DNA from: Planctomycetota bacterium
GTDB taxonomy: Bacteria; Planctomycetota; Planctomycetia; Gemmatales; Gemmataceae
NCBI GenBank assembly: GCA_016873095.1
Contig: VGYC01000045.1
Coordinates: 1 to 43,181 of the forward strand
Direction: 5' to 3'
DNA: 43,181 bases
Part shown: positions 4,761-31,490 of the stretch, piece by piece
How positions within the stretch are numbered: the stretch's first letter is position 1
Layout: each line of letters opens with the position of its first letter
Translations under genes and position numbers: made by a program
Notes under the pieces: generated by a model
What the model saw: the letters and a program-made list of their open reading frames with translations, nothing else
Databases searched by the model: none
Told to the model about the DNA's origin: nothing

Positions 4761-6620
4761 ATGTCACACGCGTTCCGCGTCCAGGCGTTTCTCGGCTCCA
4801 TCGGCGTCGCGCTTCTCTTCCTTTCGCAATCCCAGGCCGATCCCAAGCAAGCTTACTGGCAGGTGGACGACGTCCGCCCCGGCATGAAGGGGCAAGGGCG
4901 CACCGTGATGAAGGGGACCAAGATCGAGTCGTTCGACGCCGAGGTCATCGGCGTCCTGAAGAATACCAGTCCCGGCCGCGACATGATCCTGTGCCGGCTG
5001 GCAGGGCTGAACCTCGAGAAGACCGGCATCATCGCCGGCATGAGCGGCAGCCCGATCTACATCAACGGCAAGCTACTGGGTGCGGTCGCCTTCGCCTGGC
5101 CGTTCGGCACCGAGCCAATCGCCGGCGTGACGCCGTTCGCGCAGATGCACGAGTACGTCGCCTCCTACGAACGCCGCGACATGGCGGAGCGGCGGAGTCC
5201 CAAGCGGATCGGGCTGGCGACGCCCATTCGCATCGACGGCAAGGACTTCGACACGGTCACGGTGTCCGATCATCACGACCCGCAAGCGACGGCGGCCGAC
5301 GGCTTGTGGATGGTCCCGATCCGCACGCCGCTCGCTGCCAGCGGCATGTCAACGGGCAGCCTGAAGCTGCTCGGCAATCTCCTCAAGGACGCCGGCATGG
5401 TGCCGATGCAGGCCGGCGGCGCCGCGGCAGGCGTCATCGACAAGCACAAGGATGTGCCGCTGCTGCCCGGTTCGGCTTTGACGGTCGCCATGATCCAGGG
5501 CGATTTCGATGTATCGGGCATCGGCACGGTCACGCACGTGGAGGGCAAGCGCGTCTACGGCTGGGGGCATCCGTTCTTCGGCGCCGGGGCCTGCGACTTT
5601 CCGCTGATGACCGGTTACGTGCACACGATCATCGGCCGCCGCAGCATCAGCTTCAAGATGGGCTCGCCCATCCGCAACGTCGGCGTCATCAACGCCGACG
5701 TCAGCACCTGCATCGCCGGCTGGCTCGGCCGCGCGCCCGACCTGCTGCCGCTGCGGACGACGGTGACGCGGCTGCCGGAGAGCAAGCCCAAGACGTTCAA
5801 CGTCCGCATCGTCCGGCAACGCAACATGGTCGCCTCGCTCGTCTTCACCGCCCTGTCGAATTCCGTGGACATGGAAGGCGACCTGCCGGAAGAACTCACG
5901 GCTCACGTCAAGGCCCGCATCGAGCTTGATGGTCTGCCGGAACTACGCATCGATGATCTCTTTGCCGGCATCGGCATCTCCGGCAACCGGGCGCCGCAGG
6001 CTCTGTACAGCTCGCTCTCGAATATCATCAATCTCTTGAACATGAATCCCTACAAGCCGATCCGCATCAAGAACATCGAATGCTCGACGGAGATCCAGTC
6101 CGGCCGTCGAACGGCCGACAGCGAAGCGGTCGAGCTGGAACACGACACGTATGCGCCCGGCGAGACCTTGCAAGCCGTCGTCTACCTGCGACCGTACAAG
6201 GGGATTCGCCAGCGTGTGCCGCTGGCGCTGCCGCTGCCCGCTGACCTGGCGGAGGGGAACTACACGGCCACGATCGGCGATGACCTGAGCAACGCTCGCC
6301 AGGAGCTGCGCGACGATCCCAACCTGAGCAATCCGCACGACCTCGGACATCTGCTACGCGCGCTGAAGGTGCAGACCGGCGTCAAGCGGACGCATCTCGT
6401 GCTGCGCGTGCCGCTGTTCGGCACAGGCGTGGCGCTTGCTGGGCAGTCGTTGCCGGACCTGCCGCCGGGCATCGTGCAGGTGCTCGGCTCGGGCCGCAAA
6501 TCCGGCGCGCAGCCGACGAACAGCGCCCTCGTTGCCCGCCGGCCGACCGACTGGGTAATCCAGGGCTCCGAGTCGATCCGCTTCCAAGTCCAGAAGACCC
6601 GCCGCTTTCAAAATCGTTGA
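4761..6620 (+). CDS. SpoIVB peptidase S55 domain protein, exported
   Basis: Exported protein of 619 residues. A signal peptide (residues 1-26, hydrophobic core FLGSIGVALLFLS, cleavage probably after SQA) is followed by the S55-type core: GMKGQGRTVMKGTKIESF, GMSGSPIYINGKLLGA with the presumed nucleophile Ser97, and YGWGHPFFGAG with His270. The remaining C-terminal half is beta-rich and unassigned, perhaps for binding. The family includes the SpoIVB serine peptidase of sporulating Firmicutes, but planctomycetes do not sporulate, so the role is unknown. It forms a likely operon with the propeller gene 15 bases downstream. The Ser-before-His order differs from SpoIVB, so peptidase activity is an inference. 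Confidence 0.83.
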   Translation: MSHAFRVQAFLGSIGVALLFLSQSQADPKQAYWQVDDVRPGMKGQGRTVMKGTKIESFDAEVIGVLKNTSPGRDMILCRLAGLNLEKTGIIAGMSGSPIYINGKLLGAVAFAWPFGTEPIAGVTPFAQMHEYVASYERRDMAERRSPKRIGLATPIRIDGKDFDTVTVSDHHDPQATAADGLWMVPIRTPLAASGMSTGSLKLLGNLLKDAGMVPMQAGGAAAGVIDKHKDVPLLPGSALTVAMIQGDFDVSGIGTVTHVEGKRVYGWGHPFFGAGACDFPLMTGYVHTIIGRRSISFKMGSPIRNVGVINADVSTCIAGWLGRAPDLLPLRTTVTRLPESKPKTFNVRIVRQRNMVASLVFTALSNSVDMEGDLPEELTAHVKARIELDGLPELRIDDLFAGIGISGNRAPQALYSSLSNIINLLNMNPYKPIRIKNIECSTEIQSGRRTADSEAVELEHDTYAPGETLQAVVYLRPYKGIRQRVPLALPLPADLAEGNYTATIGDDLSNARQELRDDPNLSNPHDLGHLLRALKVQTGVKRTHLVLRVPLFGTGVALAGQSLPDLPPGIVQVLGSGRKSGAQPTNSALVARRPTDWVIQGSESIRFQVQKTRRFQNR

Positions 6621-27942: not shown

Positions 27943-28061
27943 TTCAGTTTTCAGTGTTCAGTTTTCAGTGTTCACGCTGCTGCAACGCAATCCTGGGACA
28001 CTACTCGAAAAGCCATTCAGGCGCTCATTGCTGAACACTGAACACTGGAAACCGAACACTG
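27943..28061. repeat. heptanucleotide array, inverted pair (nikR / hydrolase 3' ends)
   Basis: The left arm 27943-27974 is four exact heptamers, TTCAGTT TTCAGTG twice, plus TTCA. The right arm 28029-28061 has related heptamers in reverse orientation (TGAACAC units after TTGCTGAA). The pair faces inward between convergent nikR and the hydrolase gene. The right arm is inside the last codons of the hydrolase and encodes its final residues. Confidence 0.85.
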
Positions 28062-29027
28062 TTCGACCCAGTCGAGCACGCGCCAGTCGATCCAGAAATG
28101 ATCCGGGTCGCACGGTTGCGCCTTGCCGATGAAGCCAAGATGGCCGCCGCGCTCGGTGACGAGGAGCCGAGTGGTCGGCGACAGCTGCGGTTGCAGGAAC
28201 GAGCGAATAGGCACGATGGGATCGTCTTCGGAAGCGACAATGAGCGTCGGCACACGAATGGCCGACAGGTGGGGCGCCGCACTGCACACTTCGTAGTAGC
28301 TCTTGAGCGAGCCGAACCGCCAGACGCGCGTGTAGAAGAATTCATTGAACGCATCGAGAGAATCCAGGCGGGGCAGCAGGCGATGGCCTTCGGCATAACC
28401 GGGCAAGCCCTGTGCAAGCTTGATGGCGAATTTCATGAAATAACGGTGGTAGAAGCCGTTGCCTGGGCGCTGAATGGCGGCCGCGGCGGCAGCCAGATCG
28501 ATGGCCGGGTTCACGGCCATCACGCCGCTCACGTTTCGCGGCAACAAGTCATGCGACTCGCCGGCCAGCTTGAGGACAATGTTGCCTCCCAACGAATAGC
28601 CGACCACACAGGTGCTCGAACCGGGACAAAGCCGGCCCACATATTGAAGGGCCCGCGCCAGGTCGCTGGACGAACCTGCGTGATAAAGCCGCCTGGCCAG
28701 GCCCCGGCCGGCGCCGCAGCCGCGCTGATCCATGCGAAACACACGCACGCCTTGTTCCTTCAAGCGCGCCGCACCTCGTTCCATGTAACGGCTGCGATAC
28801 GATCCGCAGATGCCGTGCAGCAACAGTGCCGTCGGTCCGCCCGTCCGCCAGCCCTCCGGGCAATCGTCGTGCAGCACCAGTCGATCGCCGTCCGGCAGCG
28901 CCACGCGATGCCGGTGTGCTGCGCAGGCCGGTTTGGGCCCCGGCATCCAGAATCCGGCCAGCGTCTGGGCATGGCAGCCGCGCAGCCAGGGTAATGGTCG
29001 AAACGATGGTAGGCAGACTGTTTTCAT
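28017..29027 (-). CDS. alpha/beta hydrolase, YheT-like (COG0429)
   Basis: A 336-residue hydrolase. The N-terminus (PLPWLRGCHAQTLAG) and LHGICGSYRSRYM are typical of the YheT/ABHD1-3 family. Catalytic residues are Ser145 in GYSLGGN, Asp in SEDDP (268-269) and His296 in GGHLGF. No signal peptide is obvious, so it is probably cytoplasmic or peripheral. The natural substrate is unknown; related proteins act on esters or phospholipids. The ATG at 29027 is chosen because the family N-terminus begins there; a frame from 29165 adds only unsupported residues. The last five or so residues (VQCSA region) are encoded by the heptanucleotide repeat, so the original C-terminus may have been shorter. Confidence 0.87.
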   Translation of the reverse strand: MKTVCLPSFRPLPWLRGCHAQTLAGFWMPGPKPACAAHRHRVALPDGDRLVLHDDCPEGWRTGGPTALLLHGICGSYRSRYMERGAARLKEQGVRVFRMDQRGCGAGRGLARRLYHAGSSSDLARALQYVGRLCPGSSTCVVGYSLGGNIVLKLAGESHDLLPRNVSGVMAVNPAIDLAAAAAAIQRPGNGFYHRYFMKFAIKLAQGLPGYAEGHRLLPRLDSLDAFNEFFYTRVWRFGSLKSYYEVCSAAPHLSAIRVPTLIVASEDDPIVPIRSFLQPQLSPTTRLLVTERGGHLGFIGKAQPCDPDHFWIDWRVLDWVEQCSVSSVQCSAMSA

Positions 29028-29614
29028 GATGCTACCGGAGTCCAGATGCCAACGATGCTCGGCAAATAAAGCAAGGGGCATGCCGGGAAGCGGGATCGGA
29101 TTCGTTGCGTTGCCACCCCCTCCCTCCGCGTCGATGTCAGTCCCATGAGCACAACTCAAATGCAATCAACACATTGCGATCATGACCCGGTCCAGAATTC
29201 GTTGCCGGACCTGGCGTCTCGATGGGGGTATGAATCCGCTAGAGGTCCATTGACATTGCGTATCAAATCGGCCGATTGACTTATCGATGTGATGGCATGC
29301 GCCGGTCAGGCAGTGTCGGTTTGTTGCTGGAACCTGGCGCATGGGAGACCGGGCAGATTGGGGGGCCGACGACGGGCCCGTGGCCGGCTGCCAGCGAGTA
29401 GCGAGGTGCACGACACTCATTGCCCATCTTGTCAGAGCTTGCCATTCGCGCCTCGAGTTGGCGGCGCAATCGGATTTACTGTCACGCGCGGCAAGCCTGA
29501 GCCTCCTGCAAGGCTGGGTCCCCAGAGAAAGCTGCTAAAGCTGGGGTGGGTGAGAAGCCGACTAAAAGGAACGAGTACGGCGAACCAAGCCTTCAGGCTG
29601 TTTCCTGAAGGTGG

Positions 29615-29708: not shown

Positions 29709-29714
29709 GGAGGA
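29709..29714 (+). promoter_or_regulatory. ribosome-binding site that selects a GTG start
   Basis: A perfect GGAGGA six bases before GTG 29721. It decides for this start over the ATG-less extension and puts the signal peptide at the very N-terminus. Confidence 0.8.
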
Positions 29715-29720
29715 ATCCTC

Positions 29721-30518
29721 GTGAATGCTGCGTTTCTTTTGGTAACGACGGCCTGGCTGGCTGGTGATGCTCCCGCGGCAGCGCCAGTGGCCGCGCCGGC
29801 GAGCTCGTGTTGCAGCTCCTCGTGTTGCACGAGCTGCTGCTACGAGCCATGCTGCTGCGAATGCCGCTGCAAGAAGCAACGCCGTTGCCGCCGCAGCCGT
29901 TGCTGCAACGACTGCTGCCAGACCTGCTGCCAGCCTTGCTGCCAGCCGTGCTGCAAGGTCAGCTGCTGCCAGCCGTGCTGCAAGGTCAGCTGCTGCCAGC
30001 CGTGCTGCCAGACCTGCTGCCAGCCGACTTGCTGCAACAACTGCTGCAACGACTGCTGCTGCAAGAAGCAACGCCGTTGCCGTCGTCATCGTTGCGATGA
30101 CTGCTGCCACTGCTGCCAGCCCTGCTGCCAGCAGACTTGCTGCCAGCCGTGCTGCAAGGTGACCTGCTGCCAGCCGACCTGCTGCAACACCTGCTGCCAG
30201 CCGTGCTGCAAGGTGACCTGCTGCCAGCCGACTTGCTGCAACACCTGCTGCAACGACTGCTGCTGCAAGAAGCAACGCCGTTGCCGTCGTCATCGTTGCG
30301 ATGACTGCTGCTGCTACGTGCCGTGCTGCGACACGGGCTGCGCCACGGTCGCTCCGAAGGGCGAGAGCATTGCTCCGCCGAAGAAGATGCCCACCGAGCC
30401 GCCCCGTGAAGTTCGCATCAACACCCCGGCCGCCAGCCCCACCACCCCCGCCCTGGAAGTGGCCCCGGCTGCCGTCCCCGGTTTCGATGCCGACAATCGC
30501 AACAGCAACCCCTTCTAA
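29721..30518 (+). CDS. exported ultra-cysteine-rich repeat protein
   Basis: A 265-residue protein with a signal peptide (MNAAFLLVTTAWLAGDAPAA when counted from the base after GTG; cleavage near APAAA). The mature part is built from CC pairs separated by two or three residues: CCQPCCK, CCQPTCCN and CCNDCCCKK, with the basic block CKKQRRCRR three times. By hand count it has 76 cysteines, about 29% of the protein. A Pro/Ala-rich tail (about 215-265) ends in NRNSNPF. The pattern resembles keratin-associated proteins, not metallothioneins, which are short and not exported. Planctomycete walls are known to be protein-rich and cystine-rich, so a disulfide-linked envelope component is a reasonable inference. 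It is monocistronic, with a strong terminator. Confidence 0.85.
   Translation: MNAAFLLVTTAWLAGDAPAAAPVAAPASSCCSSSCCTSCCYEPCCCECRCKKQRRCRRSRCCNDCCQTCCQPCCQPCCKVSCCQPCCKVSCCQPCCQTCCQPTCCNNCCNDCCCKKQRRCRRHRCDDCCHCCQPCCQQTCCQPCCKVTCCQPTCCNTCCQPCCKVTCCQPTCCNTCCNDCCCKKQRRCRRHRCDDCCCYVPCCDTGCATVAPKGESIAPPKKMPTEPPREVRINTPAASPTTPALEVAPAAVPGFDADNRNSNPF
30041..30311 (+). repeat. internal tandem duplication in the cysteine-rich gene
   Basis: A 67-base segment (30041-30107) recurs without change at 30245-30311, an offset of 204 bases or 68 codons. Inside this unit a 54-base block (30138-30191) is repeated directly (30192-30245) with one difference. The gene therefore grew by in-frame duplication and may vary in length between strains. 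Confidence 0.85.
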
Positions 30519-30569
30519 TTACGGTGCCATCGCCCCAGGCGTGAGCCTGGCGTAACCACCGAAGCCCAA

Positions 30570-30608
30570 CCGGCCCGCGAAACCCCAGTTTCGCGGGCCG
30601 GTCTTTTT
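30570..30608 (+). terminator. rho-independent terminator of the cysteine-rich gene
   Basis: A perfect 14-base-pair stem (ccggcccgcgaaac / gtttcgcgggccgg, loop ccca) followed by tcttttt. It lies 52 bases after the stop codon. A small ccaggc / gcctgg hairpin (30535-30550) precedes it. Confidence 0.92.
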
Positions 30609-30691
30609 CAGTTTTCAGTGTTCAGTTTTCAGTGTTCAGAACAGGAATGCACGGCTTGCTGAAAACTGAAAACTGAAAACTGAAAACTAAC
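30607..30691. repeat. heptanucleotide array, inverted pair (cysteine-rich / lipoyl enzyme 3' ends)
   Basis: The left arm 30607-30639 is TTCAGTT TTCAGTG twice plus TTCAG, the same unit as at 27943. The right arm 30656-30691 starts with ttgctgaa and continues as four ctgaaaa heptamers. The arms can pair over about 28 bases. It begins in the T-run of the terminator and ends on the stop codon of the convergent gene. Confidence 0.87.
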
Positions 30692-31412
30692 TACGCCTGT
30701 CATTCCATGCCGGATTCTCGTACCGTTCGCACATGAGCCGGTCGCGACTGCCGGACTCCTCGCTCGTCCAGGCGCCGATGCTGACCTTCCAGCCGGTAAC
30801 TTGCTCGAACTCTCTTGCGATCTTCGCTTGCAAGACGTCCTCGGAAACCGCACGGTCGCCGTGCTCACGGATGCCCCGCAAATGGGGAACATGCGGGCTC
30901 GCCTGCAGCAGCACCGCGCCATGCTGCAGCAGTCCTTGCCGTTGCTTGCGCTGGGCGCTACCGACCACCTTGTGTCCGGCAACTGTCAAGTCGCCGCATG
31001 ACCAGCGGCGAAAGCACAAAGCCTCCGCCGCCGGAGGCGGCGCACACTGTCCTTCCTGGCGAACGTCGATGCCCACGCTACGCAACGCAGTCGCGATGAT
31101 CTGGTGCATACGCACGAGCCACGAGTCCCGGCCTTGCAGCCATTGGCCCGGCAAGGCGAGAGCATAGGTCAGCTCATGGTGATGAACGAGCATGCCGCCG
31201 CCCGTGGGCCGGCGCACGAATGGTAGACCGCGTAGCGTTGTGTGGCGACACGATGTGGCCTGGAAGTAGCCGAGGCTCACCGTCGCTTCTCGCCAGCCGT
31301 AGAAGCGTAGCGACGCCATGCCGCGCGCCGCGGACGTGAGCATGACCTCGTCGCCGGCCATGTTAACCGGGCCGGAAGCAACTGCATGCGGCAACAGTCG
31401 AACGCTGCTCAT
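30687..31412 (-). CDS. lipoate-protein ligase A / octanoyltransferase (LipM-like) family protein
   Basis: A 241-residue BPL/LPL-fold enzyme of protein lipoylation, cytoplasmic. It has the catalytic-domain motifs LGYFQ (47-51), RRPTGGGMLVHHHELTYAL (from 67) and GHKVVGSAQRKQRQGLLQHG with Lys148. Cys133 in LCFRR stands 15 residues before this lysine, as I recall for the acyl-accepting cysteine of LipM octanoyltransferases, so transfer of octanoate from acyl-carrier protein is more likely than ATP-dependent lipoate ligation. The ATG at 31412 is chosen because the extension to 31490 is translated from a palindromic repeat. It follows gcvPB on the same strand by about 90 bases; GcvH, the usual lipoylated partner, is not in this window. 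Confidence 0.82.
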   Translation of the reverse strand: MSSVRLLPHAVASGPVNMAGDEVMLTSAARGMASLRFYGWREATVSLGYFQATSCRHTTLRGLPFVRRPTGGGMLVHHHELTYALALPGQWLQGRDSWLVRMHQIIATALRSVGIDVRQEGQCAPPPAAEALCFRRWSCGDLTVAGHKVVGSAQRKQRQGLLQHGAVLLQASPHVPHLRGIREHGDRAVSEDVLQAKIAREFEQVTGWKVSIGAWTSEESGSRDRLMCERYENPAWNDRRS

Positions 31413-31423
31413 GATCACACGGC

Positions 31424-31490
31424 TTGCTTGCGTTTCGCGCTCGCATGGTCGCTTGGCGCTTGGTGCGTTGCGAACGCGAAACGTAAACAA
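31424..31490. repeat. second copy of the CGCGAAACGTAAACAA palindrome
   Basis: The right arm 31475-31490 is identical to the arm at 16496-16511. The left arm 31424-31439 matches it at 14 of 16 positions (the others can form G-T pairs). The interior (35 bases) is longer than in the first copy and only partly symmetrical. It lies between gcvPB and the lipoyl enzyme gene. Confidence 0.8.

Follow-up and report, generated by a model that had tools for sequence, protein, structure and literature searches.

The gene at positions 29721–30518 of the DNA analysed here, a stretch of 43,181 nucleotides (the window), encodes, as judged from sequence comparisons, the most Cys-rich protein found in a hitherto unannotated family of the Gemmataceae. 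Our best explanation, which we hold with a probability of roughly 0.6, is that its product is a structural protein, exported and largely unfolded, that is joined by disulfides into the Cys-rich YTV-protein wall of the Gemmataceae envelope. The question addressed is what holds the envelope of the Gemmata group together where most peptidoglycan genes are not found. Such is the situation reported for the Gemmataceae species T. immobilis (PMC8567305); peptidoglycan has been demonstrated in planctomycetes (PMC4432640). The premise of the initial annotation of this DNA, that planctomycete walls are protein-based, hence gives a partial picture.

The features of the gene and its surroundings are as follows.

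29721–30518, plus strand: complete coding sequence from the GTG start to the TAA stop; 265 residues, 76 of them Cys; based on translation, homologues and purifying selection in relatives
29709–29713, plus strand: Shine-Dalgarno sequence GGAGG, 7 nt 5' of the GTG; a similar site precedes 56 of 57 family members
29721–29768, plus strand: uncharged hydrophobic leader, VNAAFLLVTTAWLAGD, which in alignments is better conserved than any other part of the family; almost every member lacks Lys and Arg in its first 16 residues
29769–29807, plus strand: Pro/Ala linker, from the translation; conserved in kind among relatives
29808–30341, plus strand: Cys region, residues 30–207, holding the 76 Cys, with CC pairs every few residues
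29868–29903, plus strand: basic block 1, CKKQRRCRRSRC, which in the alignment sits where relatives have an amphipathic helix and does not score as that helix
30060–30095, plus strand: basic block 2, CKKQRRCRRHRC, from the sequence
30264–30299, plus strand: basic block 3, CKKQRRCRRHRC, from the sequence
30342–30515, plus strand: Cys-free Pro/Lys/Ala tail with a PPKKMP motif and an NPF end; the tail is family-wide, and 47 of 54 complete members end in Phe or Tyr ('NPF' or 'SPY')
30569–30602, plus strand: intrinsic terminator, a 15-bp stem followed by CTTTTT; the only strong terminator
30687–31490, minus strand: convergent lplA (lipoate-protein ligase), named from reading its sequence; a neighbour in five other loci, used as a positional marker only

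The coordinates, GTG start, length and Cys count (~29%) given in the initial annotation were exact, as were the three basic blocks (CKKQRRCRRSRC once, CKKQRRCRRHRC twice). Its ribosome-binding site, terminator and Pro/Ala tail were confirmed; what stands out in the tail is the NPF conserved at the C-terminus. Cys makes up 28.7% of the whole protein and 42.7% of residues 30–207; among the 75 Cys-Cys spacings, 36 are adjacent, in keeping with the richness in CC pairs noted earlier, and 18 are CxxC. Among all open frames of the window with 60 or more codons, the runner-up in Cys content reaches 14% (10 Cys in 69 codons). The Cys region, which has a net charge of about +16, is encoded by repetitive, TGCTGC-based DNA with tandem repeats of 54, 39 and 27 bp. 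Just past the terminator, at 30605–30690, lie heptad repeats of TTTTCAG/TGTTCAG with a CTGAAAA counterpart, and the end of a hydrolase-like frame at 28017–29165 also runs into TGTTCAG-like repeats. Searches of Pfam (down to E ≤ 1), NCBIfam and PDB sequences with the window protein gave no match. AlphaFold modelled it as disordered (pLDDT 46) and a relative, L094, with a pLDDT of 42; in both models the Cys region was without a usable fold.

The leader had been called a signal peptide. It is short, hydrophobic and free of Lys and Arg, and on these grounds we describe it as signal-like and not classical. The window protein is probably exported, a point that we infer from its sequence because the usual basic n-region is missing from the leader; the high conservation of the leader could also mean an uncleaved anchor.

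With tblastn, 22 of the 95 Gemmataceae genomes, counting that of the window, yielded relatives, and the matches mostly start at residue 1. A family profile built from 19 sequences was then run on the 95 Gemmataceae and 391 other Planctomycetota genomes: it matched 73 of the former, in 33 of 39 genera and usually as a single copy, and none of the 391 others. The 22 Gemmataceae genomes without a match to the profile include some that are incomplete. Homologues in Gemmata-group genomes, for which the initial annotation had proposed a search, thus exist; its CCxxCC pattern did not prove to be the hallmark of the family, since most relatives contain 6–15% Cys together with amphipathic helices, the window protein being the extreme. 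The literature searched does not name this Gemmataceae family, which may already stand in the supplements of wall proteomes as a nameless hypothetical protein.

Members share a GTG start with a Shine-Dalgarno sequence, a VNAAFLL-type leader, Cys-rich repeats, a PPKxMP tail and a C-terminal Phe or Tyr, and the window protein has all of these traits. The consensus of the first 16 residues in 57 members, VNAAFLLxTxAWLAGAD, is almost without Lys or Arg. GTG is the start codon in 54 of the 57 retrieved members, with TTG (as in L084) or ATG in the other three; this preference is possibly a conserved brake on translation. Seven pairs of relatives gave dN/dS values of 0.13–0.50, that is, the relatives are under purifying selection. 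In two Gemmata-group genomes of otherwise good assembly (L038 in G027 and L108 in G009) the family gene carries a frameshift, through either decay or sequencing error. Orthologues have between 11 and 76 Cys, without a conserved spacing, and the net charge of most relatives is only about +1 to +10. Relatives mostly carry two to five repeats in which Cys clusters surround an amphipathic helix that is short and basic (consensus SLLDKLRARFxRDCC). The nearest relative (L004/L094), with 57% identity over the matched part, has such helices as well as runs of CCKPV repeats; in the window protein, our reading of the alignment is that CKKQRRCRRHRC blocks replaced the helices, and these basic blocks do not pass a test for the helix-Cys module.

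The position of the family gene is conserved, an indication of orthology. Among 20 loci compared, in which recJ, lplA and gcvPB were named by reading their sequences and not by a database match, a divergent recJ adjoins the upstream side in 11, and convergent lplA and gcvPB adjoin the downstream side in six, the window included. Both sides occur together in three loci (L133, L134 and L137); the window locus keeps only the lplA/gcvPB side. In L133 (G050) the family gene is present twice between recJ and lplA. Flanked by its terminator and by opposing genes (recJ divergent, lplA convergent), the family gene is isolated, and its neighbours therefore point to no functional partner. L094 (6001–7080) carries an extra C-terminal domain beyond the NPF motif, for which a Foldseek search with the model returned only weak OB-like matches (best E 0.2), suggesting with low confidence an OB-like barrel. 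Just upstream of the family gene, at 4862–5638, L093 has a Cys-rich lipoprotein-like protein that seemingly contains the extra domain of L094; nothing similar to it was found in the window's genome, and for that reason we infer no partner from it.

The evidence for a role in the envelope comes from the YTV proteins, which are the top-scoring proteins of wall preparations from a Gemmataceae species, T. immobilis, and whose genes are reported across the Planctomycetales as a whole (PMC8567305). The window's genome encodes YTV-domain proteins separately, on contigs other than that of the window (C50 and C319). That the window protein is itself a YTV wall protein (PF07639) was rejected, as it has no YTV domain above the Pfam cut-off. 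One of the YTV proteins of this genome (L149, on G000:C319) has about 153 Cys in a 725-codon frame (about 21%), 48 CC pairs and uninterrupted runs of Cys (CCCC, for example); in this it far exceeds the rest of the sampled YTV proteins. Both partners reach their highest Cys fraction among those sampled in the window's genome, 28.7% for the family protein and 22.6% for the YTV protein.

For each genome one or two YTV paralogues were chosen by heuristic criteria, and the largest Cys fraction among them entered the comparison. Across 36 Gemmataceae genomes the Cys fractions of family and YTV proteins were correlated (Spearman 0.70, P = 2e-6), and the correlation held with phylogenetically independent contrasts computed from an rpoB tree of 34 genomes (r = 0.60, P = 1.7e-4) and when the window's genome was left out of the contrasts (r = 0.42, P = 0.014). 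The control, the Cys content of rpoB itself, showed no such link (r = 0.14, P = 0.42); as it is a single cytoplasmic protein, the co-variation may reflect a tendency shared by exported proteins at large. The sign of the contrasts agreed 19 to 4 for CC pairs and, weakly, 18 to 14 for Cys fraction, from which it follows that a few large contrasts carry the Cys-fraction correlation. Since its Cys content varies in parallel with that of known disulfide-rich wall proteins, the family protein probably helps to cross-link the envelope; envelope or wall cross-linking, in line with the disulfide-linked envelope or surface protein of the initial annotation, hence gains independent support from a comparison corrected for phylogeny. 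A family-specific, usually single-copy protein whose Cys evolves alongside that of known wall proteins is also a concrete candidate for knockout.

Some YTV proteins resemble the family in their tails. The module test used a softer helix-Cys HMM and more shuffles in place of an over-specific first HMM, with Cys positions preserved in the shuffles, and it detected the module in 9 of 30 YTV C-terminal tails (P ≤ 0.01); the YTV tail of the window's own genome failed it (P = 0.19). The module that the family and some YTV tails seem to have in common may reflect descent or convergence. As to oxidation, the window's genome has two DsbB-like matches, and no match there to VKOR or Thioredoxin_4.

In the mechanism that we propose, the hydrophobic leader would carry the protein out of the cytoplasm, and once in the oxidising envelope, the Cys clusters of the protein would pair within and between chains and with the Cys-rich parts of YTV proteins. 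The basic blocks, found where relatives have amphipathic helices, may hold the protein to an acidic surface or membrane, while the Pro-rich tail could act as a spacer whose C-terminal Phe provides a contact or sorting point.

Four other explanations were weighed. A periplasmic scaffold on the inner or outer membrane, anchored by an uncleaved leader, with helices lying on the membrane and Cys clusters tying neighbours together, would shape the envelope and not build the wall. Such a role would suit a leader without a basic n-region whose conservation greatly exceeds what cleavage as a signal peptide would require, the repeated amphipathic helices of relatives and the conserved C-terminal aromatic residue; we nevertheless consider it unlikely, given that Arg/Lys-Cys blocks replace the helices in the window protein. 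It is likewise improbable that the protein is a large, metallothionein-like metal binder of the envelope, sequestering thiophilic metals such as copper or zinc. Its 76 Cys in CC and CxxC spacing could hold many metal ions, and the lack of a stable fold in the AlphaFold model would be expected of an apo form, but the variable number and spacing of Cys among orthologues, the strongly basic Cys region and the absence of recognisable metal genes among the conserved neighbours argue otherwise, as does a Cys content that follows that of a structural wall protein.

The chemistry of the CKKQRRCRRHRC blocks, which resembles that of protamines, and the net charge of about +15 would fit a protein whose Arg and Cys blocks bind DNA and whose disulfides compact it. 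We regard this as highly improbable, because the conserved hydrophobic leader points to export, most relatives have a net charge of no more than about +1 to +10 and Cys co-varies with that of exported wall proteins. Finally, repetitive DNA based on TGCTGC, in which other frames are also partly open, might produce a non-functional open frame by chance in GC-rich trinucleotide repeats. The initial annotation had named a frame broken by stops in relatives as grounds for doubt; in all 52 intact members the coding frame is open, and it alone, the other two forward frames being open in none and one. Together with the 73 genomes that keep the start, leader and C-terminus, the dN/dS values and the conserved position, this makes the gene more than a chance reading of TGCTGC, and the chance frame, the least probable of the explanations, was rejected.

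Returning to the disulfide-joined wall protein that we prefer, it can be compared with several known systems, among them the YTV proteins (PF07639). Both are Cys-rich, planctomycete-restricted and exported (by inference for the family), some YTV tails have Cys-flanked helices like those of the family, and Cys content co-varies. Unlike the YTV proteins, which are about 600–900 residues long and occur across the Planctomycetales (PMC8567305), family members have about 150–360 residues and, among the genomes searched, occur only in the Gemmataceae; moreover, the window protein has no YTV repeat and differs in leader and C-terminus. The chlamydial proteins OmcA, a small Cys-rich outer membrane protein, and OmcB, a large Cys-rich periplasmic protein, offer a precedent for envelope rigidity provided by Cys-rich proteins (PMC11741522); the Pfam search with the window protein gave nothing that would lead to them. 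Metallothioneins share the very high Cys content and the scarcity of aromatic residues; as the initial annotation had judged, the window protein is not a typical one, being much larger and strongly basic, having a leader and a long tail that is rich in Pro and free of Cys, and matching no curated metallothionein model in Pfam or NCBIfam.

Keratin-associated proteins are hair proteins of animals, intracellular and without a leader. The family resembles them and the high-sulfur B2 proteins (PF13885) in pentapeptide-like repeats (CCQPxC/CCKPVC) and in Cys fraction, and L094 scored 33.2 bits against Keratin_B2_2, for which the Pfam cut-off is 27, a kind of match that is weakened by the composition correction of HMMER; the window protein itself has no Keratin_B2_2 match in Pfam. 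Common descent was rejected, as the family is bacterial, has its own leader and tail and occurs only in the Gemmataceae. On this sequence evidence the likeness is one of convergence and not kinship, which bears out the earlier suggestion of a comparable but independent design. More tentatively, and with somewhat less than even odds, the Gemmataceae envelope may have a second disulfide system in the form of this family, a family-specific cross-linker co-evolving in Cys content with the YTV proteins; if so, the Cys content of both partners would tune the stiffness of the wall, and the family would represent a bacterial convergence on the design of keratin-associated proteins, with their counterpart in the lineage of the window.
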